From NCBI RefSeq assembly GCF_002211765.1, contig NZ_CP022133.1:496001-560000 (forward strand): a stretch of DNA of 64,000 nt. The letters run 5' to 3'. The notes below the pieces were generated by a model. It ran no database searches, was not told the DNA's origin, and saw only the letters and a program-made list of their open reading frames with translations. A program made the position numbers and the translations under genes. Of the stretch, positions 32,531 to 48,120 are shown piece after piece. The DNA comes from Idiomarina piscisalsi (GTDB taxonomy: Bacteria > Pseudomonadota > Gammaproteobacteria > Enterobacterales > Alteromonadaceae). Positions within the stretch are counted from its first letter, which is position 1. Every line of letters begins with the position of its first letter.

Positions 32531-32995
32531 ATGCCGAAACTAAACTGGTTTAATCCAATACACTGGCTCTCTCTGGGGTTTGGCACTGGGTTAGCCCCAA
32601 AAGCACCCGGCACCTTCGGCACCTTAGTCGGCATCCCCTTTGTTTATCTGACTACCCAGCTCACATGGCAATGGCAAATTGGCGTCTTATTAATGGCTAC
32701 CATTATTGGTGTTTTTCTATGCCAGTATACAGCCAAAGCCATGGGTGAACATGACCATCCTTCCATTGTATGGGATGAAATAGTCGGCTACGGCTTTGCC
32801 ATGTTCGCTTTACCCTTCGAAGCCGTTTGGCTCATCGCCGCTTTCATTCTATTCCGCCTATTCGACATCTGGAAACCCGGCCCTATCGGCTGGTCCGACA
32901 AAAAACTCACTGGCGGCACCGGCATCATGATGGACGACGTCATAGCCGGCATCCTAACCACCGCCATCTTGCATGTAGCGGCATACCTCTTTTAA
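32531..32995 (+). CDS. pgpA: Phosphatidylglycerophosphatase A
   Basis: A 154-residue inner-membrane enzyme that removes phosphate from phosphatidylglycerol phosphate. The catalytic N-terminal segment is GTGLAPKAPGTFGTLVG, and DEIVGYGFAMF and RLFDIWKPGPI follow. Four membrane segments are predicted by eye. It closes the ribH operon. Immediately downstream is the first of three large inverted-repeat elements, which separates it from the convergent dxs gene. Confidence 0.95.
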   Translation: MPKLNWFNPIHWLSLGFGTGLAPKAPGTFGTLVGIPFVYLTTQLTWQWQIGVLLMATIIGVFLCQYTAKAMGEHDHPSIVWDEIVGYGFAMFALPFEAVWLIAAFILFRLFDIWKPGPIGWSDKKLTGGTGIMMDDVIAGILTTAILHVAAYLF

Positions 32996-33018: not shown

Positions 33019-33150
33019 CTTATTTCGCTTGAGCATAGAGAAGCTTCCCTGTGGAGACGCTACGAGTTCATCCATGAACGCTTGACGAAGGCCATCCATG
33101 GCCTTCGACACTCCCCAGTAAAGCTTCTCTATGCTCGTAACGCTTATAAG
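33019..33150 (+). repeat. Large inverted-repeat element, copy 1 (between pgpA and dxs)
   Basis: Outer arms at 33019-33057 and 33111-33150 pair imperfectly, with the longest block GCATAGAGAAGCTT pairing with AAGCTTCTCTATGC. Inside are hairpin I (33066-33079, GTTCATCCATGAAC), the linker GCTTGA, and hairpin II (33086-33107, a 10-bp stem CGAAGGCCAT/ATGGCCTTCG with a CC loop). The right arm includes the last dxs codons and stop. The core matches copy 2 at all but a few bases and copy 3 in layout. The position between convergent genes would suit a terminator, but no T-run is present. Confidence 0.8.
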
Positions 33151-34991
33151 CGGTCTTTGACTTGGGCTTCGATGCCTTTGGCGTCTAGGTTGAGCTCTGC
33201 GCGGATTTCGGCTTGTGAGCCGTGTTTGATGAACTCATCGGGGAGTCCTAGTTGCAGGACAGAAATAGATAAGCCTTTGTCGGCAAGATGCTCGAGCACA
33301 GCACTGCCGGCGCCACCCGCGGTCACGTTTTCTTCAACGGTGACTAAACTGTCGTGTTTGGCAACCGCATCCTCAATAGCTTTGGTGTCCAAAGGCTTAA
33401 CGAAACGCATATCAACAACGCTTGCGTTTAATGCTTCTGCGGCTTGCATTACCTCTGGCAACAGTGTGCCAAAGTTCAAAAAGGCAATTTTTTCACCATC
33501 ACGGACGGTTCTGGCTTTACCGATTGTTAATGGCTTAGGGTCTCTCAGTTCGAGTCCAACACCGGCGCCTCTGGGATAGCGAACAGAGGCCGGACCTTTA
33601 TATTCATAGCCGGTCGTCAGCATATCCAGACACTCTTGCTCGTCACTGGGGGTCATTATGACCATATTCGGTATGCAGCGCATATAGCTAATGTCGAAAG
33701 CCCCCTGGTGGGTTGGGCCGTCGGCACCAACAATACCCGCTCGATCGATAGCGAATAATACATCTAAATTCTGCAATGCTACGTCGTGAATGAGCTGATC
33801 GTAACCACGCTGTAAGAATGTGGAGTATATGGCGACAACGGGCTTCATGCCGGCAATGGCTAAACCAGCAGCGTAAGTGACGCTGTGCTGCTCAGCGATG
33901 GCAACATCAAAGTATTGCTCAGGGTACGCCTGGGAAAACTCAACCATGCCTGAGCCTTCACGCATGGCTGGGGTTATTGCCATAAGGGACTTGTCACTTT
34001 GTGCAGTGCTACACAGCCACTGACCAAAAATATCGGAGTAATTTGGAACGCCCGGCGCCTTTTGCGGCAGCTCTGATGACTTAGGATCAAACTTAGGCAC
34101 GCCGTGGTAACCAATAGGGTCTTTTTCTGCGGGCTTATAGCCTTTGCCTTTTTGCGTCACTATATGCAGTAACTGAGGACCTTTCAGGTCTTTCATGTTA
34201 CGTAGGGTGTCGACCAGCGCATTAACATCGTGACCGTCAATGGGCCCTATGTAGTTGAAACCAAGCTCTTCAAAAATGGTACCCGGCGCCATCATTCCTT
34301 TCATATGCTCTTCGGCACGGCTGGCGAAATGGCGAATATGAGGCAGCGGACTCAGCAGTTTCTTGCCACTCTCACGTAAAGAGGTATAAAAGCGACCTGA
34401 CAATAAACGAGCAAAGTGATGATTTAATGCACCGACGTTCTCCGAAATCGACATATCATTGTCGTTCAGAATAACCAGCATATCCGGTTTTATGTCACCC
34501 GCGTGATTCATGGCTTCAAAGGCCATACCGGCAGTCATAGCGCCGTCACCGATAATGGAGACCACTTTCTGTTCGCGTTTTTGACGCTGTGCGGCTACAG
34601 CTAGCCCTAGTGCGGCGGATATTGATGTACTCGAGTGACCCACAGAAAGCACGTCATAGTCGCTTTCTTCACGCCATGGGAAGGGGTGTAACCCGTCCTT
34701 TTGGCGAATGCTGTGCAGCTGGTCTTTTCGACCGGTCAGAATCTTGTGCGGGTAGGCCTGATGACCAACATCCCAAACCAGCTTATCATTTGGCGTGTGG
34801 TACACGTAGTGCAAGGCAACAGTGAGCTCTACGGTACCTAAACCTGACGCCAGGTGCCCGCTGCTTTGACTCACGGAGGTCAGCAGAAACTGACGAACTT
34901 CAGCGCATAGGTCAGTGAGTTGATTGGGTGACAGTTCACGCAAATCAGCCGGAGAATTAATTTTATCGAGTAACGGGTAATTTTGTATCAT
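33144..34991 (-). CDS. dxs: 1-deoxy-D-xylulose-5-phosphate synthase
   Basis: A 615-residue thiamine-diphosphate enzyme joining pyruvate and glyceraldehyde 3-phosphate, the first step of the MEP isoprenoid pathway. The visible motifs are the cofactor motif [18 protein letters not shown], the early [18 protein letters not shown], and the transketolase-like [18 protein letters not shown] and [15 protein letters not shown]. The length is typical. It is the last gene of the minus-strand xseB-ispA-dxs operon (4 bases after ispA). Its stop codon lies within the right arm of inverted-repeat element copy 1. Confidence 0.97.
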
Positions 34992-34995
34992 TCGC

Positions 34996-35883
34996 TCAGT
35001 GATCCCGCTTCAGCAGGACATCAGAAAATTGTTCGAGTTTTGCCGTATTGTAAGGGATATCGGCGAGTGACAGTAGTGCTTTCTCATGTAACGAGTTTAA
35101 GTATTGCTGAGCCCCGTCGACACCTAATAGTTGAACGTACGTTGATTTATTGGCTGCCGTGTCTGACCCTTGGGGCTTACCAAGCAACTCAGTATTGCCG
35201 ATAACGTCGAGAATATCATCCTGCACTTGAAATGCGAGCCCCAAATGGGCCGCAAAGGTTTTAAAATGCGGTTGCCACTTTTGGGCTTTTTCTTCACCAC
35301 AAAGTACGCCTATTGTCGCAGCGGCTTCAATTAACGCCCCCGTTTTATGCTTGTGCATGTGCTCCAGCTCGGTCTCATTGACATGCTGGTCTGTGGCTTG
35401 CAAGTCAATTGCCTGACCGGCGCACATGCCCGCACTACCACTGGCACGAGCCAATGCGTTCACCATAGACAACTGGCGGTCTGCATTCAACCCACCTAGC
35501 GGGGATTCTGACAACAATTCAAAGGCGAGTGTCTGCAGAGCGTCACCGGCTAAAATAGCGGTCGCCTCATCAAAGGCTATGTGGCAGGTGGGTTGACCGC
35601 GCCTTAGATCGTCATTGTCCATCGCTGGTAAATCATCGTGAATCAGCGAATACGCATGAATGAGTTCAATCGCCGCTGCAGCGGCTAAAGCGGCATGCTT
35701 ATCGCCGTGACAAATATCGGCAATCGTCATTAATAAATACGGGCGCACGCGTTTTCCGCCCAGCAGCACACCGTGCTCCATAGCACGGGTTAATGGTTCA
35801 TTAATGGAGTGGCGAGACAGCTGTTTTTGTAAAAACGTGTCGACTTGCTCGCGCACTTCAGCCGTTAATGCATTAATGCTCAC
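34996..35883 (-). CDS. ispA: (2E,6E)-farnesyl diphosphate synthase
   Basis: A 295-residue trans-prenyltransferase that extends isopentenyl diphosphate with dimethylallyl and geranyl diphosphate to C15. The first Asp-rich motif is [18 protein letters not shown] and the second is [12 protein letters not shown]. The substrate-binding GGKRVRPYL and the conserved GQAIDLQ are present. Its start overlaps the xseB stop by 4 bases, giving translational coupling in the xseB-ispA-dxs operon common in gammaproteobacteria. Confidence 0.96.
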
Positions 35884-36116
35884 ATGACTTCTCCGTCATC
35901 ACTTTCAGAAGAGCCTTCCTGAGCAGCCATGAGGGTTGTGACTTTTTGCTCGGCCTGTTGCAGTTGCTGTTGGCTGGTACGAGCTAATTGAATGGCTTTT
36001 TCGAACTTTTCCAGCGACTTCTCAAGTGGCAGTTCGCCATGCTCAAGTTCATTTACCAATGACTCTAGCTCTTCTAACGCCTGCTCAAATGAAGGGGCTT
36101 TTTGTTGTTCTGACAT
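35880..36116 (-). CDS. xseB: Exodeoxyribonuclease VII small subunit
   Basis: A 78-residue helical protein with the typical XseB sequence FEQALEELESLVNELEHGEL, followed by PLEKSLEKFEKAIQLAR. It joins the large subunit XseA (not in this window) in a single-strand-specific exonuclease. First gene of the operon leading to ispA and dxs. It is divergent from pomA, across a 180-base region that carries a sigma-28-like promoter on the other strand. Confidence 0.93.
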   Translation of the reverse strand: MSEQQKAPSFEQALEELESLVNELEHGELPLEKSLEKFEKAIQLARTSQQQLQQAEQKVTTLMAAQEGSSESDDGEVM

Positions 36117-36160
36117 AGTGCTTCTTGCGCAATTGTTGTGTGTTAGGGCTAATTATCCGA

Positions 36161-36187
36161 TAAAGAATCCCGAATGTCAGCCGATGA
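36161..36187 (+). promoter_or_regulatory. Sigma-28 (FliA)-type promoter for pomAB
   Basis: TAAA at 36161 and GCCGAT at 36180 are separated by exactly 15 bases (TAAAGAAT, 11 bases, GCCGATGA), which fits the flagellar class-3 consensus TAAAGTTT-N11-GCCGATAA. It lies 110 bases before the GTG start of pomA. Motor stator genes are typical FliA targets. No other strong candidate promoter was seen for pomA. Confidence 0.65.
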
Positions 36188-36296
36188 TCTCATTATTCCT
36201 GTGTAACATAACAAGAAGATGCTTGTCAGAGCAGCGCTATTGTTTAAGAATGGAGCGTAGCTGAATGGCAAAAAGTGAATTGGGGAGGAGCACTGA

Positions 36297-37064
36297 GTGG
36301 ATATAGCAACGCTCGTTGGGATAATCGGCGCCATTGGTTTCGTTATCATGGCAATGATTTTGGGTGGCGATATCAGTTTGTTTATGGATACACGATCGGT
36401 ATTCATTGTTTTTGGTGGCTCCCTTTTTATTACACTCGCAAACTTTTCTCTTAGTCAGTTTCTGGGCACAGGTAAAGTCGTTGTAAAAGCCTTCTTTTTC
36501 AAAATCGAGCACCCGCAAGAACTTATCGATACGGCAGTTGAAATGGCGGACGCCGCGCGTAAAGGCGGCTTTTTGGCACTGGAAGAGGCGGAAATTCCCA
36601 ACAAGTTCTTTCGTAAAGGTGTCGACATGCTGGTCGATGGTCACGATGCAGAAGTCGTAAGAACAACGCTATCGAAAGACATAAAAATGAGTTTTGCGCG
36701 TCATGAAGAAGGCGCTCGCGTTTTTAAAATTCTGAGCGATGTCGCACCGGCCATGGGTATGATAGGTACGCTTATTGGCTTGGTGGCTATGCTGTCTAAT
36801 ATGGATGACCCTAAAGCCATTGGCCCGGCCATGGCGGTTGCCTTGTTGACGACGCTTTACGGTGCGTTTTTGGCTAACGTTATCGCGATTCCAATCGCTA
36901 ACAAACTGATGCTGCGTGCCGAGCAGGAAAAACTGAATCAGCAGTTGGTTCTTGATGCCATACTCGGTATACAAGACGGGCAAAACCCACGTGTCATTGA
37001 AGGTATTTTGCGTAACTACCTGGCTGAATCAAAACGCGTTGGTGACGGTGACGAGGAAGAGTAA
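36297..37064 (+). CDS. pomA: Flagellar motor stator protein PomA (sodium type)
   Basis: A 255-residue MotA-family protein that reads closely like Vibrio PomA (start MDIATLVGIIGAIGFVIMAM). Four membrane helices are evident: two at the N-terminus and two around residues 150-205 (MGMIGTLIGLVAML, VALLTTLYGAFLANVI). The cytoplasmic loop contacts the rotor. The start is GTG at 36297 with GGGGAGGAG upstream. Together with PomB it forms the ion-driven torque generator. pomB begins 2 bases after the stop. Confidence 0.95.
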   Translation: MDIATLVGIIGAIGFVIMAMILGGDISLFMDTRSVFIVFGGSLFITLANFSLSQFLGTGKVVVKAFFFKIEHPQELIDTAVEMADAARKGGFLALEEAEIPNKFFRKGVDMLVDGHDAEVVRTTLSKDIKMSFARHEEGARVFKILSDVAPAMGMIGTLIGLVAMLSNMDDPKAIGPAMAVALLTTLYGAFLANVIAIPIANKLMLRAEQEKLNQQLVLDAILGIQDGQNPRVIEGILRNYLAESKRVGDGDEEE

Positions 37065-37066
37065 TA

Positions 37067-38008
37067 ATGGCCTCTGAAACAGTAAGAGACGAAGACGAAG
37101 AAGAGTGCGACTGCCCACCCGCAGGCTTGCCCATGTGGATGGCGACATTCGCCGACTTGATGACGCTGTTGATGTGTTTCTTCGTTTTGCTGTTGGCGTT
37201 CTCCGAAATGGACGTGCTGAAGTTTAAACAAATAGCCGGTTCTATGAAGTACGCTCTGGGCGTTCAGAATAAAATTGAAGTGAAAGACATACCCAAAGGA
37301 ACCAGTGTTATCGCTCAGGAATTTCGGCCTGGTCGGCCTGAGCCAACCCCAATAGAAACCATTCAGCAGCAAACCGTTGAAATGACTCAACAAATGCTCG
37401 AGTTTCAGGAAGGGCAGTCTGACTTTGCCGGCGGTCAGCAAACCGAGCGTGGCGGTCAGGAAGCCGATAGTAAAGAAGATGAAAAACAGGCTGAATCTGA
37501 AAATACTGAAGCCATGACTCAAGTGTCTCAAGAGCTTATGCGTCGCATTGAGCAACAGCTCGAGAACGAAATAAAAGCGGGCACTATCGAGCTGGAGCAG
37601 CACGGTCAGCAAATTATTATTCGTATTCGTGAACAAGGCTCATTCCCGGAAGGCTCGGCTTTCTTACAGCCACAATTCCGCCCAATTATTCAGCAAGTCG
37701 CGACAGCGCTTAAAGAGATTCCGGGCGAAATTACGATTTCCGGACACAGTGACAATGAGCAAGTTGTGTCAGAGATTTACTCTTCACGCTGGGATCTCTC
37801 CAGCAAACGAGCAGTTGCTGTCGCTGAGGAAATGCTAAAAGTCGATGACTTCAGTGAAGACCGCATGGTGGTTATGGGGTATTCAGACACCAAACCGTTG
37901 GTTCCTAATAACTCTGAAGAGAATCGCCGCCGTAACCGTCGGGTTGAGATATCGGTGATGCAGGGTAAAGCGGCCGAGTCTGAGCAACAGGTTGACGTCA
38001 TAGACTAA
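37067..38008 (+). CDS. pomB: Flagellar motor stator protein PomB (sodium type)
   Basis: A 313-residue MotB-family protein. The single membrane helix carries the ion-binding Asp30 in MATFADLMTLLMCFFVLLL; this is the position of Asp24 in Vibrio PomB. The flanking FSEMDVLKFKQIAGSMK, then KDIPKGTSVIAQEFRPGRPE, are PomB-type features, supporting sodium rather than proton coupling. A Glu/Gln-rich spacer (about residues 110-165) leads to a C-terminal OmpA-like peptidoglycan-binding domain (ISGHSDNEQV, NRRRNRRVEISV). Confidence 0.95.
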   Translation: MASETVRDEDEEECDCPPAGLPMWMATFADLMTLLMCFFVLLLAFSEMDVLKFKQIAGSMKYALGVQNKIEVKDIPKGTSVIAQEFRPGRPEPTPIETIQQQTVEMTQQMLEFQEGQSDFAGGQQTERGGQEADSKEDEKQAESENTEAMTQVSQELMRRIEQQLENEIKAGTIELEQHGQQIIIRIREQGSFPEGSAFLQPQFRPIIQQVATALKEIPGEITISGHSDNEQVVSEIYSSRWDLSSKRAVAVAEEMLKVDDFSEDRMVVMGYSDTKPLVPNNSEENRRRNRRVEISVMQGKAAESEQQVDVID

Positions 38009-38075
38009 GCGCTGGTTTCTGGCGCTTAGGACACGTATAATTGCCGACTTTCTCACAAAGCCAAATGATATTGCT

Positions 38076-39530
38076 ATGAAGTTTGTTGTCCGCCTGCACG
38101 CCGAAATCACCATTAAAAGCGCATCGGTCCGAAAACGCCACGGTAAGGTGTTAACCAATAATTTGCGCAAAATTTTGGCACCGATACATTCGTCCATTTA
38201 TGTTAAGTGGCTGTGGGACCGTATTGAGGTGGCAGCGGAGACCGATAGCAACGACGCGCGCGACGCGATACGCGAGGCACTGAGACATACTCCGGGAATT
38301 TCCTGGTTTGCCGAAGTTATTGAGCAGCCATTAACGACCTTTGACGATATTGCTGAACTCGTCGGTGAGCACTGGAATCGTCGCCTGCAAGGCAAAAGTT
38401 TTGCGGTGCGAGTCAAACGTCAGGGCAAACACGAATTTAATTCTCAGCAACTTGAACGCTACATCGGTGGCTATCTTTTAAAGCATTCAGAAAACGCTCG
38501 TGTGCAATTAACCCGGCCGGATGAAGAAGTACAACTGCAGATTACCAATCAAGTGGTGCATCTTATTGGTGAACGTATTGATGGTATTGGCGGTTTTCCC
38601 ATTCCGACTCAGGAGACGGTGTTGTCACTGCTCAGTGGTGGGTTTGACTCCGGCGTTGCCAGCTATGAGTTTATTCGTCGTGGGGCCCGTACTCATTTCT
38701 GCTTTTTCAACTTAGGTGGCGACGCTCACGAAGTGGCGGTGCGTCAAATTGCTTATTTCCTTTGGAAAAAATACAGCTCATCACATCCTATTAAGTTTAT
38801 CAGTGTCGACTTTGCGCCCATCGTTGATGACATTCTGACGAATGTTGATAATGGCCAAATGGGGGTTGTGCTTAAGCGTCAAATGCTTCGGGCGGCATCG
38901 AAAGTTGCTCATTATGTTAAAGCACAGGCGCTGGTCACTGGTGAAGCAATGGGTCAAGTCTCCAGCCAAACACTGTCTAATCTGCGAGTGATTGATCAGG
39001 CGACACCGGCCTTAGTATTGCGTCCGCTTATCACCAAAGACAAACAAGAAATTGTCGACGAGGCGAAGAAAATAGGCACTGAACCGTTAGCGAAATCGAT
39101 TCCTGAGTACTGTGGAGTCATTTCTAATAAACCGACAGTGAAAGCCTTGCCTGACGTTATCGAGGCGGAAGAAGCAAAACTGAACCCGGAGCTTTTAGAT
39201 CAGGTTGTGCGCGCATCCAATGTATTGAGTATGCAGGACATTGCAGAACAAACTGAAAATGAATTGCAAATGCCGGATACAACAGCGGAACTCAGCAAGC
39301 AGAGTGTCATCATAGATATTCGTAACGATGATGAAATTGAAGCGGCACCTTTGAGTGTCAGTGCGGATATCATCGAAATTCCATTTTTCAAATTGGCGTC
39401 TAAGTTTCCTGAATTAGACCAGAGTCGCGATTATTTGCTCTATTGTGACCAGGGAATTATGAGTCGTATGCAGGCGTTGCTATTGCACGAAAATGGCTTT
39501 AACAACGTATCTGTTTATAAGCCTGATTAA
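38076..39530 (+). CDS. thiI: tRNA 4-thiouridine synthase / thiamine sulfur-transfer protein
   Basis: A 484-residue protein with three parts. There is an N-terminal ferredoxin-like/THUMP region (about 1-165), a central PP-loop ATPase (SLLSGGFDSGVASYEF near residue 190), and a C-terminal rhodanese domain with the catalytic Cys in YLLYCDQGIMSR. It adds sulfur at U8 of tRNAs and, in organisms with the rhodanese part, also supplies sulfur for the thiamine thiazole. It starts 67 bases after pomB. The length matches E. coli ThiI (482). Confidence 0.96.
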   Translation: MKFVVRLHAEITIKSASVRKRHGKVLTNNLRKILAPIHSSIYVKWLWDRIEVAAETDSNDARDAIREALRHTPGISWFAEVIEQPLTTFDDIAELVGEHWNRRLQGKSFAVRVKRQGKHEFNSQQLERYIGGYLLKHSENARVQLTRPDEEVQLQITNQVVHLIGERIDGIGGFPIPTQETVLSLLSGGFDSGVASYEFIRRGARTHFCFFNLGGDAHEVAVRQIAYFLWKKYSSSHPIKFISVDFAPIVDDILTNVDNGQMGVVLKRQMLRAASKVAHYVKAQALVTGEAMGQVSSQTLSNLRVIDQATPALVLRPLITKDKQEIVDEAKKIGTEPLAKSIPEYCGVISNKPTVKALPDVIEAEEAKLNPELLDQVVRASNVLSMQDIAEQTENELQMPDTTAELSKQSVIIDIRNDDEIEAAPLSVSADIIEIPFFKLASKFPELDQSRDYLLYCDQGIMSRMQALLLHENGFNNVSVYKPD

Positions 39531-39542
39531 AGAGACGTATTT

Positions 39543-39875
39543 ATGCTGGCACGATTGCTGTTTTTTCTTCTGTTGAGTATCGCGACGGTTTTGTTTTTGT
39601 GGCAATTCCCAAACACCGGCGCGCAGAGTATTCCTTACCTGGATAAGCTTGTGCATTTTGGAATATTCTTCGTGTTGGCGATGACTTTTCACCGAGCGTT
39701 CGCATTGTCAGCGAAGTTGTCTTTATTGTTTTTGGCCTGCTATGGCTTGGCCATTGAGATTGCACAAAGTTATGCACCTGGACGCGGTGCCGATGTCTAT
39801 GACTGGATAGCTGACGCCTGTGGCGTTATTGCTTACTTTGCTCTCCATCATATACGAAAAAAGTCGCGCTCTTAA
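39543..39875 (+). CDS. VanZ-family small membrane protein
   Basis: A 110-residue protein with about four membrane helices and VanZ-like motifs: DKLVHFGIFFVLAMTF near residue 35, EIAQSYAPGRGADVYDWIAD, and a final helix GVIAYFAL. The family name comes from a teicoplanin-resistance gene, but most members have no known role. It lies 12 bases after thiI and overlaps the convergent srmB by 3 bases. Both stops fall in the loop of a shared terminator. Confidence 0.8.
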   Translation: MLARLLFFLLLSIATVLFLWQFPNTGAQSIPYLDKLVHFGIFFVLAMTFHRAFALSAKLSLLFLACYGLAIEIAQSYAPGRGADVYDWIADACGVIAYFALHHIRKKSRS

Positions 39876-39889
39876 CGCGACTTTTTCGG
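39857..39889. terminator. Bidirectional terminator, both stop codons in the loop
   Basis: AAAAAGTCGCG (39858-39868) pairs with CGCGACTTTTT (39876-39886) around the 7-base loop CTCTTAA. The VanZ-like gene stop (39873-39875) and the srmB stop (complement of 39872-39874) lie in that loop. T-runs follow on both strands (CTTTTTCGGTTTTTTT on plus), so it should terminate both converging transcripts. Confidence 0.85.
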
Positions 39890-41125
39890 TTTTTTTGGCT
39901 TAGCCGTTTTTTTCCCTTTTGTTTCTTTCTTCGCCTTCTTTTTCGGCTTAGATTTTTTCGTCGACGGGAATTTGTACTGAGGGCGCAGCCCTTCAATAAC
40001 ACGTCTATCGAGTTGAGCATCTAAATAACGCTCAATCCGGCCTAACAACAACGCATCATGTGCTTCGACTAATGAAATAGCCGTACCTTTTTGCCCACCG
40101 CGAGCCGTTCGGCCAATACGGTGCACATACACATCGGCTTGTTTGGGCAAGTCGTAATTAACAACTAACGAGATATCATCAATATCTAACCCACGCGCGG
40201 CCACGTCAGTAGCAACCAGCGTAATGTCCTGATTCTCTTTCAGTGTATTAATAATTTGCTGGCGCTCATTCTGAGGCATGTCACCTCTTAGCGTGACAAT
40301 CTTGCGGGTATCAGTAAATTCACTGCGCAAGAAGTTAGCGACTATTTCCACCCGCTCACGAGTGCGAACAAAGACAAACTGACGACCTTTAAAGTCCTTT
40401 AGGGATGAGATTAAAAGTTTACGCTTGTGCTCATCGGTGTCAGCCAAATGAATCCACTGAACAATTTTACCGCGTTCGCGCTTGGGTGGTTGCACGTCAA
40501 TGTATTCGGGCTCATTTAAAAGCTCTTTGGAGAATTTAATAACCCCAGAGCTGCCCAGTGTTGCAGAGAACAACAGTGACAGCTGTCTGTGTCGGGCCTG
40601 CAACGCCATTTCTTTTACTGAAGCGGCAAAGCCCATATCCAACATTCTGTCAGCTTCATCAATGACCAGCCACTCAACACTTTCTAAGTTGTACTGTTCT
40701 GCCTCCAGTAAATCCATCAAGCGGCCAGGCGTTGCGACCAACAGATCGTGACTTTTTTCTAGTTGAGACAACTGGCTTCCATAGTTAATGCCGCCGGTGA
40801 CCACCACCGACGACAAACCGGTAGCCTCAGAGAACAGCGACGCTTGTTGGTGAATCTGTTCAGCCAACTCACGCGTCGGCGCCAACACCAAAATCCGGGC
40901 CGGGCCTGGTTGCTTGCGAGGGAAGTCCAATAAGTGCTGCAGCGCCGGCAATAAAAACGCTAAGGTTTTACCGGTGCCTGTCGGCGCACTCACTAACAAG
41001 TCCCGGCCGTCGAGCGCTTGTGGAATACTTAACTGTTGAACTTTCGCTGGTTTGTTTAAATCGGCTGCTTTGAGAACGCCAATTAAGCGATCATCCAGTT
41101 CTAACTCTTCCCAGTCTGGGACCAT
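39872..41125 (-). CDS. srmB: DEAD-box ATP-dependent RNA helicase SrmB
   Basis: A 417-residue DEAD-box helicase. It carries SAPTGTGKTLAF (motif I), PTRELAEQI (Ia), VIDEADRMLDMGFA (II, DEAD), SATL (III), TDVAARGLDIDDI and HRIGRTARGGQKG (VI). The stretches FLLPALQHLLDFPRK and GRQFVFVRTRERVE, plus the C-terminal lysine-rich tail (about 30 residues, KKSKPKKKAKK), match E. coli SrmB, which assists early 50S ribosomal subunit assembly. The gene lies 22 bases downstream of a usp gene on the same strand, so it may share the sulP-usp transcript. Confidence 0.92.
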   Translation of the reverse strand: MVPDWEELELDDRLIGVLKAADLNKPAKVQQLSIPQALDGRDLLVSAPTGTGKTLAFLLPALQHLLDFPRKQPGPARILVLAPTRELAEQIHQQASLFSEATGLSSVVVTGGINYGSQLSQLEKSHDLLVATPGRLMDLLEAEQYNLESVEWLVIDEADRMLDMGFAASVKEMALQARHRQLSLLFSATLGSSGVIKFSKELLNEPEYIDVQPPKRERGKIVQWIHLADTDEHKRKLLISSLKDFKGRQFVFVRTRERVEIVANFLRSEFTDTRKIVTLRGDMPQNERQQIINTLKENQDITLVATDVAARGLDIDDISLVVNYDLPKQADVYVHRIGRTARGGQKGTAISLVEAHDALLLGRIERYLDAQLDRRVIEGLRPQYKFPSTKKSKPKKKAKKETKGKKTAKPKKPKKSR

Positions 41126-41147
41126 TGTTTTTCCTCTTTAAAACAAA

Positions 41148-41999
41148 TTAACGCAACAGCAGCAAGGCTGAGTTGGTTGTTTGTAAAATGCTAGTGGTCG
41201 TGCTGCCCACCAAGAACTGGCGAATGCGCGAATGACCATAGGCACCCATCACCAGCACATCAATATTGTGTTCATTCTGGTAGGCGTGCAGAGTTGATTC
41301 AATCTCTCCTGAGCGCACTTCAAAGCGCACGTCGTGACCCAGTTCCCGTAAATGGTTAGCCGCTGACTCTATTGCTGCATGGTTGTCGTTAGTGTCGGCG
41401 CCAACCATGACCAAGTGTAAAGGCAGACCTTTAAAAATCGGGCTTTCAGCAAGTAAGCGTATGCCTTTGCGTGACGAATCGCTGCCATCGTATGCCAACA
41501 TAACACTTTTCGGTTCCGTGAATTCTTCAGGTGCCACCAAAATAGGGCGACGCATGGTTCTTACCACGGTTTCCAACTGGCTGCCTATGCGATGAGTGCG
41601 TGTCGTGTCTTCACCATGTAAGCCCATGACCAGCAAGCGCATAGAGTCTTCAATTTCGTGCAACGATTCGGCTAAGTCACCATGACGCTGGCGCAGGTGT
41701 ACTTGCTCCACACCGTCTTCCTGAGCGCGTATTTTGGCGCTTTCCAGCATGTGGTGTCCTTGCTCAAGCGCTAATTTACTGCGCTGTTGGTCGAGTTCAG
41801 CCAGCTGTTCCAGTAAGGCTTCGCGACTGCCCAAGCCAATATTGCCCGTCATATCAGTTTCAGTCGGGTAGCGCGCTTCATCCAATACGTGGAACAGCGT
41901 TAATGGGGTATCTAAACGCAGTGCCGCCCAGCTGGCGTAGTCACAAACTGACTGTGTCGAGGCAGAACCGTCAATACAAGCAACAACATGTTTCATCAT
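41148..41999 (-). CDS. Tandem universal stress protein (UspA family)
   Basis: A 283-residue protein made of two Usp domains, about residues 1-140 and 145-283. The second domain has an intact ATP-binding motif, VMGAYGHSRIRQFLVGSTTTS (G-x2-G-x9-G-S/T type, continuing to SIL). The first is a variant (GLHGEDTTRTHRIGSQL). Such proteins bind ATP and are induced under starvation or oxidative stress; a precise function is unknown. It is 11 bases downstream of sulP and 22 bases upstream of srmB. Confidence 0.88.
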   Translation of the reverse strand: MMKHVVACIDGSASTQSVCDYASWAALRLDTPLTLFHVLDEARYPTETDMTGNIGLGSREALLEQLAELDQQRSKLALEQGHHMLESAKIRAQEDGVEQVHLRQRHGDLAESLHEIEDSMRLLVMGLHGEDTTRTHRIGSQLETVVRTMRRPILVAPEEFTEPKSVMLAYDGSDSSRKGIRLLAESPIFKGLPLHLVMVGADTNDNHAAIESAANHLRELGHDVRFEVRSGEIESTLHAYQNEHNIDVLVMGAYGHSRIRQFLVGSTTTSILQTTNSALLLLR

Positions 42000-42010
42000 C
42001 GAATTCCTTT

Positions 42011-43501
42011 TTAGTGACCGCCCATTAATTTATCAACCGCTTCGGGTTTGTCGTGAACACCAAACCGATCGACAATCGTAGCACTGGCTTCGTTAAGTCC
42101 AACCACTTCAACATCAGCACCTTCACGGCGAAACTTCACTACTGCACGGTCAAGTGCTTCAACGGCGGTAATATCCCAGAAATGGGCATTGCTCACGTCA
42201 ATAACAACCCGTTCAACACCTTCTTTAAAGTCAAATGCGGCGAGAAACTTCTCAGACGAGCTAAAGAACACCTGGCCGACAACGCGGTATGTGCGTTTAA
42301 TGCCATCCGCATCAACATCCGAGTTAATATACAGATAATGCCCGATTTTGTTGGCAAAGAACATGGCAGCTAACAGCACGCCGACTAAAACGCCTAATGC
42401 TAAGTTATGTGTTGCGACAACAACCGCAACGGTACTCACCATAACGATATTGGTCGACAGTGGGTGTTTCTTCAAATCTCGAATAGAGCTCCAGCTAAAG
42501 GTACCAATAGAGACCATGATCATCACTGCAACCAACGCTGCCATGGGTATTTGTACCAAAATATTATCCAGCACTAAGACCATAATCAGCAGGAAAATAC
42601 CCGCAACCAAGGTGGATAGGCGCGTACGACCACCCGATTTCACATTAATAATCGACTGACCAATCATGGCGCAACCCGCCATGCCGCCAAGTAAACCCGA
42701 GCCGATATTGGCTATGCCCTGACCTTTACATTCGCGGTTTTTATCGCTGGAGGTATCGGTTAAGTCATCAACAATGGTTGCCGTCATCAGTGACTCAAGA
42801 ATACCGACAACCGCCAATGCCGCAGAATAAGGGAAAATAATGGCTAAGGTTTCGAAGTTTAACGGAACGTCAGGCCATAAGAATATCGGCAGAGCGTCCG
42901 GCAATTCGCCCATATCACCAACGGTGCGAATGTCTAAGCCTAAGAACACGGCAACAATGGTTAAAGAAACAATACAAACCAATGGAGACGGTAAAATTTT
43001 TCCGATAACCGGAATGTAAGGGAATCCGTAAATAATTGCCAAGCCAGCCGCCGTCATCGCATACACATGCCAGGTGACATTGGTCAGCTCAGGTAACTGA
43101 GCCATAAATATCAAAATAGCCAAAGCATTCACAAAGCCTGTCACCACCGAGCGTGAGACAAAGCGCATGAGGTCCCCTAACTTGAGATAGCCCGCAATTA
43201 TTTGCAGCACACCGGTCAATAGGGTGGCAGCTAGCAGGTATTCAAGCCCGTGGTCTTTGACCAGGGTGACCATTAGCAGTGCCATAGCACCGGTTGCGGC
43301 AGATATCATGCCCGGGCGCCCACCCGTAAAAGCGATAACCACAGCAATACAGAAAGAAGCGTATAAGCCTATTTTTGGATCAACGCCGGCAATGATGGAG
43401 AATGCGATGGCTTCAGGAATTAGCGCTAGAGCAACGACAATACCTGAGAGCAAATCACCACGTATATTAGAAAACCAGTTCTGCTGGATAGACTTCAACA
43501 T
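42011..43501 (-). CDS. SulP family anion permease (bicarbonate/sulfate type)
   Basis: A protein of about 496 residues with a SulP transporter domain ([37 protein letters not shown]) and a C-terminal STAS domain from about residue 400 ([20 protein letters not shown]). Marine relatives often transport bicarbonate with Na+; sulfate and other anions are possible. I set the start at the ATG at 43501 ([18 protein letters not shown]), where relatives begin; a GTG ten codons upstream also opens the frame. First gene of sulP-usp(-srmB), with a structured leader of about 170 bases upstream. Confidence 0.88.
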
Positions 43502-43538
43502 AGTTAAATGACACCAAATTTTAAATAACACATATAAA

Positions 43539-43660
43539 AGCGGCCGGAATGGCCAGAAAAGCAGTGAACAGCCTACTGCGCACCTGCGACAAGGAAGTGA
43601 CGGCTAGGGTGGCGTAATACGCGTCAGCACGTAGGTGGCTCCTTATGGTTTGAGGCTGGT
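43539..43660 (-). promoter_or_regulatory. Structured leader of sulP (attenuator-like; riboswitch not excluded)
   Basis: Transcribed on the minus strand from the extended -10 at 43677-43685. A stem pairs CCTAC (43631-43635) with GTAGG (43572-43576), and flanking bases add further pairs. A second hairpin, GCAGT/ACTGC (43575-43579 and 43561-43565), is followed by TTTT (43557-43560) and shares bases with the first, so only one can form. A GGCC/GGCC hairpin (43542-43554) follows. A small open frame lies in the middle. Together this looks like transcription attenuation. No riboswitch consensus was matched by eye. Confidence 0.5.
43604..43630 (-). CDS. Possible 8-codon leader peptide of sulP
   Basis: The frame GTG-CTG-ACG-CGT-ATT-ACG-CCA-CCC-TAG (fMet-L-T-R-I-T-P-P) has a perfect AAGGAG ribosome binding site 8 bases upstream (43639-43644). 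Two prolines before the stop form a potential ribosome-stalling end. The CCTAC arm of the leader stem lies between the ribosome binding site and the GTG, so a bound ribosome would block that stem. It is short enough to arise by chance; the strong site and its placement are the support. Confidence 0.4.
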   Translation of the reverse strand: MLTRITPP

Positions 43661-43676
43661 CAAAAAAAGAGCGCGA

Positions 43677-43685
43677 ATTTTAGCA
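43677..43685 (-). promoter_or_regulatory. Extended -10 promoter for the sulP leader
   Basis: On the minus strand TGCTAAAAT is an extended -10 (TGn plus TAAAAT, five of six). It is about 180 bases before the sulP start and would place the transcript start near 43670, just ahead of the structured leader. It lies directly after the arsJ stop, so the leader belongs to sulP rather than to the ars operon. Confidence 0.45.
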
Positions 43686-43698
43686 TAAAATGTGCCAA

Positions 43699-44907
43699 CT
43701 ACAAGTGCTTTCCTCGCGCCGGTAAAAAGCTAATCGCCATGGTAGATAGCGCCAATAACAGCGTTGATATGATCAGGCAAGCAACCAGCCCCCATTGCTG
43801 ATACACCCAACCGGATAAAACCGTACCTAATAGGCGTCCGGCGGCATTGGCCATATAATAAAAACCAACGTCCAGCGACACCCCGTCAGCGCGTGAATAA
43901 GCCACAATTAAATAACTGTGCAGCGACGAATTGATGGCGAACAAAATACCGAATAGCCCTAAGCCAATAATAATGCTGTGGGCAATCGGTAAGTATTGCC
44001 AAAGTGCCAGAGCAAGCGCTAGCGGGCTCAGTGTCAGTAGGGCGTTCCATACCACCGCCTGAGCTTTGGGCACGTCCTGGCTACTTTTTGTGAATTTAGG
44101 CGCAACGCTTTGCACAAAGCCGTAGCCAATCACCCATAACGCCAAAAAGCTACCGATCTGCCAGTGATTCCAGTTGAGTTGACTGGCAAGAAATACAGGC
44201 AACGCAACCACAAACCAGACGTCACGAGCACCAAACAACAGAAAACGTGCGCCCGACAAAATATTAATAGGTCGGCTTTTGGATAAAATGTCTTTAAATT
44301 TCGGCTTAAACTTGGCCTTGCCGGACTCTTTTTTCAGGCAGATTAAACTGCCTGTCCAGACAACAGCGAGCATTATCGCCATAGCCAGTACCGCGCCTTG
44401 AAAACCAATTAAGGTAAGGAGAAACCCGCCCAGGAAAAAGCCAACGCCTTTTAAGGTGTTCTTCGATCCCGTCAGTATCGCTACCCACTTGTATAGCTGA
44501 CCCTGCTTGTCGTCCGGCACCAAGAGCTTAATGGTGCTTTTAGCGCTCATTTTATTCAGGTCTTTGGCAATACCGGATAGCGCCTGAGCCGCCATCACCC
44601 AAATAACAGTGAGCATCGAACTGGGCACCAGCAGCATGGCGAGTGCCACAATTTGTATGCCGAGCCCAATGTTCATGGTGCGATTGAGCCCCCAACGAGC
44701 CCCCAGCCAACCACCAAACAGGTTGGTGACTATGCCGAAAAACTCATAGAACAGGAACAACATGGCGACTTCCAGCGCACTGTAGCCCAACTGGTGGAAG
44801 TGCAGCACCACCAGCATACGCAGCGCGCCGTCAGTCAGAGTAAAAGCCCAGTAGTTGCCCGTAACAATTAAGTATTGGCGTATTGCCGGCGACAGCTGAC
44901 TCAGCAT
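43699..44907 (-). CDS. arsJ: Organoarsenical efflux MFS transporter ArsJ
   Basis: A 402-residue major-facilitator protein with about 12 membrane helices (WAFTLTDGALRMLVVLHF, LFGARDVWFVVALPVFLASQ). ArsJ proteins export 1-arseno-3-phosphoglycerate, the unstable product made by the partner GAPDH, which gives arsenate resistance. The gene begins at the last base of the GAPDH stop (one-base overlap) within the ars operon, which firmly supports the assignment. Last gene of the operon. Confidence 0.9.
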   Translation of the reverse strand: MLSQLSPAIRQYLIVTGNYWAFTLTDGALRMLVVLHFHQLGYSALEVAMLFLFYEFFGIVTNLFGGWLGARWGLNRTMNIGLGIQIVALAMLLVPSSMLTVIWVMAAQALSGIAKDLNKMSAKSTIKLLVPDDKQGQLYKWVAILTGSKNTLKGVGFFLGGFLLTLIGFQGAVLAMAIMLAVVWTGSLICLKKESGKAKFKPKFKDILSKSRPINILSGARFLLFGARDVWFVVALPVFLASQLNWNHWQIGSFLALWVIGYGFVQSVAPKFTKSSQDVPKAQAVVWNALLTLSPLALALALWQYLPIAHSIIIGLGLFGILFAINSSLHSYLIVAYSRADGVSLDVGFYYMANAAGRLLGTVLSGWVYQQWGLVACLIISTLLLALSTMAISFLPARGKHL

Positions 44908-45902
44908 TAACCGACCTTTTCGACCAGCTCAACCGAGCGGTTGGCATAACCCCACTCGTTGTCATACCAGGCGTAAATTTTTACGTGCGTACCGTTAATG
45001 ACTTTGGTGGACAGGGCATCGACAATGCTTGAGCGCGGATCAGTTTTGTAATCTATCGACACTAACGGGCGCTCTTCGTAACCCAGAATGCCTTTAAGTT
45101 CACCTTCTGCGGCTTCTTTCATCCAGTCGTTAACCTCTTCAACAGAAGTGGCTTTTTCCACTTCGAATACACAGTCGGTTAGGGACGCATTGGCAAGGGG
45201 GACTCGTACAGCGTGACCGTCAATTTTGTCTTTCAGCTCTGGGAAAATCTCCACAATAGCAGTAGCCGAACCGGTGGACGTCGGAATTAAACTCATGCCG
45301 CAGGCGCGGGCCCGACGTAAGTCTTTGTGCGGCGCGTCCAGAATGGTCTGCGTATTAGTTAAATCGTGAATCGTGGTAATAGACGCGTGCTTAATACCAA
45401 TTTTGTCTTGTAGTACTTTTACCACAGGCGCCAGACAGTTGGTGGTGCAGGAAGCTGCTGTAACTATCTGATGCTTTTCCGGGTTATAAAGGTGCTCATT
45501 AACGCCCATGACAATATTCAAAGCGCCGGGTTCTTTAACCGGAGCGGATACCACAACTCGCTTAACGCCCTGTGACAGATAGTCATTCAGAACCTTCACG
45601 GTTTTCATCTTGCCGGAGGCTTCCAGAACCACATCGCAACCACTCCAGTCATTGTCGGCAATGGTTTTGTGCTGAGAAAAAGCAATGCGTTCCCCACCAA
45701 TTTGAATCGCATTGTTCAGAGCTTCGGCCTCATAACCCCAGCGGCCATGCACCGAATCAAAATTCAGCAAGTGCGCAAAAGTAGCCGCATCGGCACCCGG
45801 ATCATTGACCTGAACAATCTCCAGCTCAGGGTTTTCCCATGCTACACGTAAAGCGAGACGGCCAATGCGACCCAAACCGTTAATTCCAACTTTAATTGTC
45901 AT
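44907..45902 (-). CDS. ArsJ-associated glyceraldehyde-3-phosphate dehydrogenase
   Basis: A 331-residue GAPDH with the NAD-binding start [15 protein letters not shown], the catalytic Cys in [13 protein letters not shown], and the C-terminal [16 protein letters not shown]. In arsenic operons such enzymes form 1-arseno-3-phosphoglycerate from glyceraldehyde 3-phosphate and arsenate, and ArsJ then exports it. The sequence differs from glycolytic GAPDH in several loops ([10 protein letters not shown] region), and the location between acr3 and arsJ is the main reason for the specialised call. The glycolytic function cannot be excluded. Confidence 0.9.
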
Positions 45903-45940
45903 AAAAGACTCCCCATTCTATATCTAAAGGGTTTTAGCGC

Positions 45941-46978
45941 TCATGATTTAAACCAGTGTTTCGTCTTATTCGCGAACCAGACTAAAGAGAGCATAACCGG
46001 CACTTCAACTAAGACACCAACAACCGTTGCTAACGCTGCACCCGACTGCAAACCAAATAATGAAATAGCCACCGCAACCGCCAGCTCAAAAAAGTTTGAT
46101 GTACCAATCAGGCAGGCCGGAGCCGCAATGCGGTGAGGGAGCTTTATCAGTAACGCAATAATAAACGTAATAGCAAAAATGCCGTAGGTTTGAATCAGCA
46201 GCGGCGTTGCTATCATGGCAATGTCTAACGGGCGTGTTAGTAGCACCTCGGCCTGAAAGCCGAATAGCAGCACCACTGTTAGCAGTAAGCCGACAATGGA
46301 CCAGGGCTTCATGCGCGTATCAAAGGCCTGCAGTGCGGAGTCGACATTTTGCTGTTGCGATGTTGCTCTGCCCTTTAGCCGCTGGCGCGTTAACAGCCCG
46401 GCAATAAGCGGTGCTACCACGTATAAGCCAACGCTGAGCAATAGGGTTTGCCAGGGCACAATGATGTCGGTAATACCTAAAAGCAGCGCAGCTATTGGTG
46501 CGAAGGCAAAAATCATAATGACGTCGTTGACCGACACCTGTACCAGGGTATAACTGGCATCGCCTTTGGTCAGTTGGCTCCAGATAAACACCATAGCTGT
46601 ACATGGTGCCACGCCCAGAAGAATGACCCCAGCCAGGTATTCGTTGGCGGTCTCGGGCTGAATGAAATCAGCAAATACGCCTTTGAAAAACAGCCAGCCG
46701 ACCAGTGCCATAGTAAAGGGTTTTACCAGCCAATTAATGACCACGGTAAGAATAAGCCCTTTCGGTTCCTTAGCAATTTGAGTAATCGACTCGAAGTTTA
46801 CCTGAACCATAACCGGGTAAATCATCAACCATATCAACACCGCGATAATCAGATTCACTTGAGCAAATTCAATGCCCGACAAGACTTCAAAGATTGACGG
46901 GAATAAGTTGCCCAGTAACGTACCGACAATAATCGCCAGTGCGACCCAAACCGATAAAAACCGTTCAAACACACCCAT
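45941..46978 (-). CDS. acr3: Arsenite efflux transporter ACR3
   Basis: A protein of about 345 residues with ten membrane helices. The ACR3 hallmarks are the Cys in [18 protein letters not shown] (the essential thiol in helix 4) and the Glu in [20 protein letters not shown] (helix 9). It extrudes arsenite, the product of ArsC. I chose the ATG at 46978 ([11 protein letters not shown]), preceded by AAGGA at an 8-base gap; an ATG three codons upstream lies too close to the same site. The gene overlaps the arsR 3' end by 14 bases. Confidence 0.92.
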
Positions 46979-47280
46979 TATCGACATCCTTGACTTGTTG
47001 AGGAATTAACGCTGCGTGATAAGCCGCAGTGGTTTTAATAATTGTTGCCATCCAGTCCTGCAGCGCGGGGTTAATGCGATAGTAAACCCAGCGCTGATCT
47101 TTGCGGTCAGCAAGCAACCCGTATTCGCGCAGTTGCGCCAAATGCCGCGACACTTTTGGTTGTGACATACCCGTCGCGTCCACGAATTGGCAAACACATA
47201 ACTCACCATGGTGTTGTAGCATTAAAATCATTTTCAGGCGTAGCGGATCAGACAGAATTTTGAAGAACTCATGGGGGCAT
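46965..47280 (-). pseudogene. arsR: ArsR-family arsenical repressor, start disrupted by a C5 frameshift
   Basis: From 47231 an intact 88-codon frame encodes the winged-helix ArsR core, with the arsenite-binding ELCVCQF and the recognition helix MSQPKVSRHLAQLREYG. Upstream, the same frame continues with clear ArsR sequence (EFFKILSDPLRLK) but has no ATG, GTG or TTG before an in-frame TGA. One base fewer in the five-C run (plus-strand G at 47273-47277) would give a perfect start MPHEFFKILSDPLRLKMILM at 47280. So either a real +1 insertion shortens the repressor or the assembly has a homopolymer error. It regulates the ars operon. Its 3' end overlaps acr3. Confidence 0.8.
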
Positions 47281-47704
47281 CAAAGAGCTGCGGTCGGTTA
47301 CTTTCCTTGCGTAAAATCAGCAACAGCATCTTTATACGCTCGCTTAATTCATGCGCCGTTTTCTTAAAAGCATCCGCTTTTTTGCTGGCAACAGGATCCG
47401 GGAAGTCCCAGGCAATGAAATGCTGGTCGCCACATAAAGTCTGGCACTCTGTGCGAGCGCGGTCACAGAGGCTTATCACATAATCGAAGCTATCAAGCTC
47501 AATGTCATCAAGCGCTTTCGAGCGAAGCCCCTCTGTCTCAACACCCAGAGCCTGCAACGCCGATAGCCCCTCCGGCTCCGGTTGTGTCGGCTCAGTACCT
47601 GCACTGGCTACCTCAAAGTCATCACCAGCAAACTGCCGAAAAATAGCCTCCGCCATCAAAGACCGCGCAGAATTCGCCGTACACAGAAACAAAACCTTCG
47701 TCAT
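47234..47704 (-). CDS. arsC: Arsenate reductase, thioredoxin-coupled (LMW-PTP type)
   Basis: A 156-residue enzyme of the low-molecular-weight phosphatase fold. The active loop is Cys8 in CTANSAR (C-x5-R), with further cysteines at 80, 87 and 91 (SLCDRARTECQTLC) for the thiol relay, and WDFPDP as the acid loop. It reduces arsenate to arsenite for ACR3 export. The last 11 residues (MSSSKFCLIRYA region) read through arsR in the wrong frame; if one C is removed at 47273-47277 the gene ends ...QLFDAP and overlaps the arsR start, as expected. First gene of the operon. Confidence 0.9.
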   Translation of the reverse strand: MTKVLFLCTANSARSLMAEAIFRQFAGDDFEVASAGTEPTQPEPEGLSALQALGVETEGLRSKALDDIELDSFDYVISLCDRARTECQTLCGDQHFIAWDFPDPVASKKADAFKKTAHELSERIKMLLLILRKESNRPQLFDAPMSSSKFCLIRYA

Positions 47705-47715
47705 CAGGTAACACC

Positions 47716-47755
47716 ATATATTCGATAATTCATATATATGCTATCCCGAATATAT
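47716..47755. promoter_or_regulatory. Inverted repeat at the ars operon promoter (candidate ArsR operator)
   Basis: ATATATTCG (47716-47724) and CGAATATAT (47747-47755) are a perfect nine-base inverted repeat separated by 22 bases of AT-rich sequence (TATATATG within). They lie 12-51 bases upstream of the arsC start, where the core promoter must be. ArsR dimers typically bind such AT-rich dyads containing ATTCG-like half sites, but no direct match to a published operator was attempted. Confidence 0.5.
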
Positions 47756-47782
47756 TGGCCGCGCAATAGCCAAGCTGGGAGG

Positions 47783-47939
47783 AGGCCGGTTGTCACTTGT
47801 TTCGCTTGAGCATTGAACCTCCTGTGGCGGAGACGCTACGAGTTTATCCATGAACGCTTGACGAAGGCCATCCTTGGCCTTCGACACTCCGACACAGGAG
47901 GTTCAACACTCGTAACGCTTACAAGTGAGCAACCGGCCT
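47783..47939 (+). repeat. Large inverted-repeat element, copy 2
   Basis: Arms at about 47783-47831 and 47887-47939 pair over roughly 50 bases with interruptions (GGCCGGTTG/CAACCGGCC with a one-base bulge, CACTTGT/ACAAGTG, TTGAACCTCCTGTG/CACAGGAGGTTCAA). The core has hairpin I (47842-47855, GTTTATCCATGAAC), linker GCTTGA, and hairpin II (47862-47883). The core differs from copy 1 at only a few bases (C to T at hairpin I, A to T in hairpin II), yet the outer stem sequence is different. Lies between arsC and the zinc peptidase gene. Confidence 0.8.
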
Positions 47940-47956
47940 TATCTACCATTGGTCGT

Positions 47957-48116
47957 GAGGGGGCTGAACCATGAGTGCGCCCAACGGTTACAGGAGCTAC
48001 TGAGGAGGTGAGCAGCGCCATGGATGGCGCTGCTCAAGCCCTACAGGGATGTATTCACGGGCGTCCTCCACAGTAGCTCCTGTAACCTCAGCGCTCGTGG
48101 TTTCAGCCCCACCCTC
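47957..48116 (-). repeat. Large inverted-repeat element, copy 3 (opposite orientation)
   Basis: Arms at about 47957-48008 and 48063-48116 pair as GGGGCTGAA/TTCAGCCCC and GGTTACAGGAGCTACTG/CAGTAGCTCCTGTAACC. On the minus strand the core contains hairpin I (48042-48053, TACA-loop-TGTA), the same GCTTGA linker, and hairpin II (48010-48035, a 12-bp stem GAGCAGCGCCAT/ATGGCGCTGCTC). The same GTGGAG and ACGC boundary is seen as in copies 1 and 2. It begins just after the stop of the zinc peptidase gene. Together with copy 2 it fills most of the 416-base gap 47705-48120. Confidence 0.75.
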
Positions 48117-48120
48117 GCAG

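Follow-up and report, generated by a model that had tools for sequence, protein, structure and literature searches.

The sponge RNAs CsrB, RsmY and RsmZ are encoded by one or a few genes, each RNA carrying several GGA motifs. According to excerpts of the respective publications, the consensus ligand of CsrA obtained by systematic evolution of ligands by exponential enrichment (SELEX) is RUACARGGAUGU, with an ANGGAN hexaloop, and one CsrA dimer bridges two sites 10-63 nt apart (PMC7652899); the TwoAYGGAY motif (RF01731), found in the human gut, gamma-Proteobacteria and Clostridiales (PMC2864571), has been proposed to bind CsrA on the strength of motif matches (PMC4333381); and the YPAL repeat is mobile, with target duplications of 3-26 bp and targets that span or adjoin dyad symmetry (PMC2229807). 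Here we describe a family of palindromic elements that brings these systems to mind, represented by three copies in a 64,000-nt stretch of the one-contig, 2.59-Mb genome of Idiomarina piscisalsi (NZ_CP022133.1, positions 496,001 to 560,000; hereafter, the window). With a probability of roughly 0.7, we interpret the window elements as non-autonomous mobile palindromes of Gammaproteobacteria, akin to miniature inverted-repeat transposable elements (MITEs), with a core whose RNA is predicted to bind one CsrA dimer.

The three copies occupy two intergenic regions, one between pgpA and dxs (copy 1) and the other between an M49-family peptidase gene and an ars operon (copies 2 and 3), and fall into two subtypes, A (copies 1 and 2) and B (copy 3). 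The outer arms are 88-96% complementary; a core 20-mer, with up to 3 mismatches, has 2 matches in the window compared with 0.03 expected from shuffling, and GCCATCCATGGC, with up to 1 mismatch, has 3 compared with 0.27 expected. When each copy was folded in either strand, the z-scores ranged from -7.3 to -11.2, and none of the 200 shuffles scored as low. The RNA of the strand that carries the GGA motifs (hereafter, the GGA strand) is predicted to form a three-way junction, in the order outer stem, UGU, hairpin II, YCAAG, hairpin I, GGCGU, outer stem, with the following parts in the window.

33019..33150, minus strand (predicted RNA strand): element copy 1, subtype A, directly downstream of dxs
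33031..33056, no strand assigned: copy 1 outer arm, partner 33111-33136
33066..33079, minus strand: copy 1 hairpin I, predicted CsrA site, GGA at 33073-33071 of the minus strand (coordinates from the sequence)
33083..33110, minus strand: copy 1 hairpin II, predicted CsrA site, GGA at 33097-33095 of the minus strand
33111..33136, no strand assigned: copy 1 outer arm, partner 33031-33056
47783..47939, minus strand (predicted RNA strand): element copy 2, subtype A
47808..47832, no strand assigned: copy 2 outer arm, partner 47887-47911
47842..47855, minus strand: copy 2 hairpin I, predicted CsrA site, GGA at 47849-47847 of the minus strand
47859..47886, minus strand: copy 2 hairpin II, predicted CsrA site, GGA at 47873-47871 of the minus strand
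47887..47911, no strand assigned: copy 2 outer arm, partner 47808-47832
47957..48116, plus strand (predicted RNA strand): element copy 3, subtype B
47986..48008, no strand assigned: copy 3 outer arm, partner 48065-48087
48009..48036, plus strand: copy 3 hairpin II, predicted CsrA site, GGA at 48022-48024
48042..48053, plus strand: copy 3 hairpin I UACAGGGAUGUA, predicted CsrA site, GGA at 48047-48049
48065..48087, no strand assigned: copy 3 outer arm, partner 47986-48008

The elements are not confined to the window. A covariance model locates 18 full copies and 1 partial copy in the host genome, including the three in the window, and a loose core pattern is matched by at least 118 stretches, mostly from Marinobacter, Stenotrophomonas and other Gammaproteobacteria, including relatives of Idiomarina, with a few from other groups. 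Among the genome-contig matches listed, 101 of 122 retain at least 16 of the 22 outer-stem pairs, 5 being unscorable at contig ends; one copy that passes this filter is labelled Desulfuromonas (L061). Across the class, 75 of 369 genomes have a match to the model R2 (E<=1e-4), and the copy numbers that it yields are lower bounds given that 11 candidates were scored per genome. Of the matches in viral contigs, none of the 32 passes the outer-stem filter, and only one, L148, shows a recognisable half element; moreover, window positions 47783-48116 have no blastn match in the viral or plasmid collection, so an origin from phages or plasmids was rejected. In L148 (an IMG/VR contig), positions 7480-7510 include a predicted prophage end, where a Stenotrophomonas-type element has other sequence in place of its left half, up to just before AGTAAACCCATCC, as if a phage had integrated in the element core.

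The fold is maintained across this diversity. We aligned 47 copies from many genera, 45 of them chosen from the 101 stem-filtered copies and 2 from the window; 12 of 59 aligned copies, including window copy 3, were left out because they opened gaps. Standard pairs make up 92.2% of the pair cells, compared with 60.1% after shuffling, a percentage somewhat inflated because 45 of the 47 copies had passed the outer-stem filter. Two-sided changes number 491 vs 143 in the shuffled control and are present in all 18 outer pairs, and the covariation score is 0.798 vs 0.200, with structures slid by 1-3 columns reaching at most 0.180. Within the host genome alone, the 19 distinct rows, including the partial copy, score 0.779, although this alignment, being fitted to the model, leans towards it. 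The sequence-only reading of this DNA had proposed three copies of one family, with a conserved two-hairpin core and variable, self-complementary stems that differ between copies in hairpin I, hairpin II and the outer arms and are under selection for structure; the copies, their positions and the stem differences are all borne out, and selection on structure gains support from covariation above both the shuffled and the slid controls.

The same reading presented the elements on the CATCC strand, whereas mispairs identify the opposite strand as the informative one. On the CATCC strand, the outer helices of the 47 copies contain 35 C-A but only 6 G-T mispairs, and therefore 35 G-U and 6 A-C on the GGA strand. 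The same asymmetry was observed on the GGA strand of the 101 copies, with 62 G-U vs 19 A-C (36 vs 7 copies, p=9e-6), the pair offsets having been set by a rule that leaned towards the opposite answer. Purine-purine vs pyrimidine-pyrimidine mispairs in the 47 copies also favour the GGA strand (38 vs 5), and G.A mispairs are present in the stem of hairpin II on this strand. Such an asymmetry suggests that it is the GGA strand that folds, as a single strand of RNA or of DNA.

On the GGA strand, both conserved loops have the form C[ANGGAU]G, that is, the canonical CsrA/RsmA hairpin. In all 47 copies, 23 or 24 nt separate the start of one loop from the start of the other, so that each element offers two ANGGAN hairpins at a spacing suited to a single CsrA dimer, and 7 of the 47 contain the exact SELEX consensus. 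The host genome encodes csrA, and two further findings, with the qualifications given below, speak for a CsrA site: the retention of ANGGA in the host's own copies and the higher frequency of csrA among element-bearing than among element-free genomes. From these features, we predict that CsrA binds the GGA-strand RNA.

At least one genome, G269, contains mobile members of the family, the same core residing there inside elements with the ends CAGCAATTCCCARTTT. The end sequence has 300 matches (up to 1 mismatch) in this genome, suggesting about 150 end pairs with or without the core. Among 27 stretches fetched, 22 copies have both ends, and 18 of these are accompanied by direct repeats of 8-11 bp located at, or within 3 bases of, the element ends; in shuffled flanks, the mean repeat is 2.2 bp, and 4.3% reach 7 bp. 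One of the 30 fetched DDE_Tnp_1 loci of G269 is bracketed, at 1.6 kb, by the 16-bp ends of the element; the insertion sequence (IS) defined by these ends has a DDE-type transposase (PF01609), its frame looks divided, and it has no clear target duplication. Thus, the G269 copies, the only ones in which this was seen, combine the features of MITEs, namely, terminal inverted repeats, target duplications, ends in common with a resident IS and, judging by element length, no coding capacity. At loci L285-L304 of this genome, the elements are 162-297 bp long with the same ends, and some contain nested hairpins with extra GGA loops inside hairpin II. The sequence-only reading had not proposed mobility, but relatives of the window elements are mobile DNA with target duplications.

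Among catalogued families, TwoAYGGAY appears to be a relative. Both have two CANGGAUG-type hairpins, a CAAG linker, G.A mispairs within one hairpin stem and an external stem of poor sequence conservation. In our element, the loops are ANGGAU and the external stem covaries, but the second loop position is often a non-pyrimidine (A and G occur); mobility is not mentioned in excerpts of the TwoAYGGAY descriptions. No Rfam family reaches its threshold anywhere in the window: against the gathering cut-off of 43 for RF01731, the best of the host's copies, a B copy, scores 31.1 bits and L050 41.0 bits, both on the GGA strand. In the scan of the class, with its stricter filters, RF01731 has no match in the host genome and matches in 23 of the 369 genomes, above the cut-off in 15, and it is multicopy in several. 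The model R2 recovers 3 of 12 loci fetched with RF01731 (L311, L315 and L316, in other genomes, all of which pass the RF01731 cut-off) at 56-69 bits but gives at most 20 bits or no match for the remaining 9, so the two models meet only in part.

YPAL, also known as RU-2, has the same core. The RU-2 sequence (taken from PMC2759123) aligns with the element along both hairpins and adopts a similar fold; its two GGA hairpins, GAGCC linker and TTTACGGCGTC follow one another as they do in the element. YPAL is likewise an intergenic, multicopy palindrome, of about 168 bp, and it is mobile, as are the G269 relatives of the window copies. It differs in that it has been described in Yersinia and Erwinia; in the excerpts of the literature matches listed, no link to CsrA is made either for YPAL or for such palindromic repeats. 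The Yersinia RNA family Ysr224 (RF02770) also aligns, below its cut-off of 70 bits (23.7 bits for the core of copy 3, in an alignment spanning 48007-48124 of the window, and 44.7 bits for L012), although its model apparently represents the complement of the GGA strand. With CsrB, RsmY and RsmZ, the element shares GGA hairpins that fit a CsrA dimer, but it consists of many dispersed two-site units in palindromic repeats. Searching the literature with words from the core sequence returned no title on bacterial repeats among the matches listed. The family, which the sequence-only reading could not name, has thus been described in part: RF01731 and RF02770 align without reaching threshold for the window copies, and YPAL/RU-2 shares the core.

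Repetitive extragenic palindromic (REP) sequences, with which the sequence-only reading had suggested a comparison, showed no connection to the element. The host has no match to the Y1 transposase domain PF01797, and none of the 30 fetched Y1 loci holds the element within 1.5 kb by either of two methods, so a REP/RAYT origin was rejected; Y1 genes are present in 14 of 20 element-bearing genomes.

Comparison of orthologous loci, for which the neighbours of the window copies are needed, shows how the insertions behave.

32531-32995, plus strand: pgpA, on one side of copy 1
33144-34991, minus strand: dxs, on the other side of copy 1
47704 down to 45941, minus strand: arsC-arsR-acr3 operon, on one flank of copies 2 and 3
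48121-49782, minus strand: M49-family peptidase gene, on the other flank of copies 2 and 3

Both near dxs and near the peptidase gene, presence of the element is lineage-specific. Of 30 dxs loci fetched from 40 relatives, 8 are shown, and 4 of these contain elements, in different arrangements; two have a common insertion whose stem differs by paired changes. Downstream of the M49 peptidase gene, 8 of the 12 congeneric loci shown (19 genomes searched) have R2 matches, the stems again differing in pairs, with G-U among the exceptions. At these orthologous loci, the stems change in pairs while the core is nearly unchanged. Together, the two comparisons imply that insertions are lineage-specific and can be flipped. 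Several further features of these regions deserve mention. The dxs stop codon seems to derive from element-adjacent sequence (33140-33150); dxs ends differently in relatives, one of which has an additional B element at this place, and it is therefore probable that the end of dxs was joined to the element by a deletion. At three congeneric M49 loci (L318, L322 and L326), GTAG...CTAC palindromes, which in our estimation resemble REPINs, interrupt the core hairpins or stand in their place; they occur in these congeners although the genome of the window lacks a Y1 transposase match. Just upstream of arsC, at 47716-47755, there is an AT-rich 20-bp inverted repeat, similar in several congeners, which we presume may be an ArsR operator.

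With respect to genes, 83 of the 101 copies could be placed by simple open reading frame (ORF) calls, 29 of them overlapping a call: 26 lie between convergent genes, 12 between divergent genes, and 23 and 22 between tandem genes in the two orientations (17, 9, 12 and 16, respectively, without the ORF-overlapping placements; background gaps, 47, 47, 45 and 57). The excess of convergent over divergent contexts, absent from the background, together with the YPAL targets spanning or adjoining dyad symmetry (PMC2229807, in excerpt), would suit the idea that the element inserts into existing stem-loops, such as terminators, and keeps their arms as its outer stems. We consider this origin of the stems distinctly improbable: one and the same insertion has stems that differ by paired changes from species to species, and the G269 copies at different sites have near-constant arms, with the direct target duplications outside them.

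The placed copies also do not behave as a 3'-untranslated-region (3'-UTR) element in fixed orientation, and neither of the other conventional transcriptional roles is apparent. No promoter-like or terminator-like site marks the window copies as transcription units: the chance-level terminator-like site at 33209-33222 and the promoter-like site at 47729-47756 lie outside the elements, and as no terminator-like site coincides with an element there, the intrinsic terminator was dismissed as a candidate. So was an independent small RNA (sRNA) promoter, given the lack of a promoter preference on the GGA strand. A conventional conserved sRNA gene family of the CsrB/RsmY type, multicopy by chance, would account for the dual CsrA-type hairpins and for the alignment, below threshold and on the opposite strand, with the sRNA family Ysr224. 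It is very improbable, however, because of the lineage-specific loci (4 of 8 at dxs, 8 of 12 at the peptidase gene), the missing promoter preference and transcription-unit signals, and the mere two GGA hairpins per unit. As neither a fixed 3'-UTR role nor a dedicated promoter is supported, transcripts of the element would come from its neighbours.

Several observations weigh against a mobile palindrome with a CsrA-binding RNA core or qualify the evidence for it. Loop conservation in the 101 (and 47) copies arises partly by construction, because the collecting pattern fixed CATCC, TG and GCTTG; in the host genome, ANGGA is retained in 35 of the 36 hairpins of the 18 full copies (the partial copy, L207, was left out), a count that is free of the pattern, although the model that found these copies was built on pattern-collected ones. 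The association with csrA, detected in 61 of 62 element-bearing vs 219 of 252 element-free genomes that are at least 90% complete and at most 5% contaminated (p=0.006), and in 70 of 75 vs 243 of 294 over all 369 genomes (p=0.019), is confounded by phylogeny, and 5 of the 75 element-bearing genomes, picked by hand, are without a detected csrA. Purine-purine vs pyrimidine-pyrimidine mispairs show no clear preference in the 101 copies (31 vs 27 copies, p=0.69), promoter scores of the GGA strand are not above those of the other strand (99 copies, p=0.28), and the orientation of tandem copies relative to genes is random. At the M49 locus, only 3 of 6 A copies, and 2 of 8 B copies, have their GGA strand in the direction of the gene, and in the genome G087, the core of some copies is inverted relative to otherwise repeated flanks; these two findings imply that the arms also recombine as DNA. 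Finally, the target duplications come from G269 only, not from the genome of the window.

The random orientation and the flipping of the core inside the arms, along with the mobility in G269 and the many paired changes at orthologous loci where the core hardly changes, are what purely selfish palindromic DNA would display, with a fold that acts as single-stranded DNA or a cruciform in transposition, GGA loops that serve as transposase recognition sites, and stems that stay paired because template switching during replication copies one arm onto the other. We regard this alternative as unlikely. Symmetric arm conversion is not expected to produce the one-strand asymmetry between G-T and A-C mispairs; the loops agree with the CsrA site even in its free N; none of the 30 fetched loci of Y1 (single-strand) transposases holds the element within 1.5 kb, and the host has no Y1 match; and the sole matching IS is of the DDE type.

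Under the interpretation that we favour, a non-autonomous mobile palindrome would carry a constant core, the GGA strand of which would fold, as RNA, into a three-way junction presenting two canonical CsrA/RsmA-type loops so spaced that one CsrA dimer could bridge both, that is, one dimer per element. The window copies would be, or once have been, mobile in the manner of those in G269. Since the fold has to be preserved, the stems would diverge through paired changes, whereas the GGA loops would stay constant. Conceivably, element transcripts titrate CsrA as dispersed decoys or are themselves stabilised by CsrA, and such a role might be useful to the host or to the element. More tentatively, and with somewhat less than an even chance of being correct, the elements belong to a superfamily of mobile palindromes that is spread over Gammaproteobacteria and includes YPAL and at least part of TwoAYGGAY, with a built-in CsrA-dimer site, such that transposition rewires the Csr system, a global post-transcriptional regulator, or CsrA is exploited by the element to control itself.

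This picture joins the TwoAYGGAY motif, the Yersinia MITE YPAL, Ysr224 and the repeats of Marinobacter, Stenotrophomonas, Idiomarina and other bacteria, and provides them with a testable partner protein, CsrA. If it is correct, the host gains a decoy or a CsrA-responsive module with every insertion. Should CsrA indeed bind these elements, mobile DNA has spread CsrA sites, which would bear on the differences between the Csr regulons of related bacteria and on how MITEs affect the fate of mRNAs.

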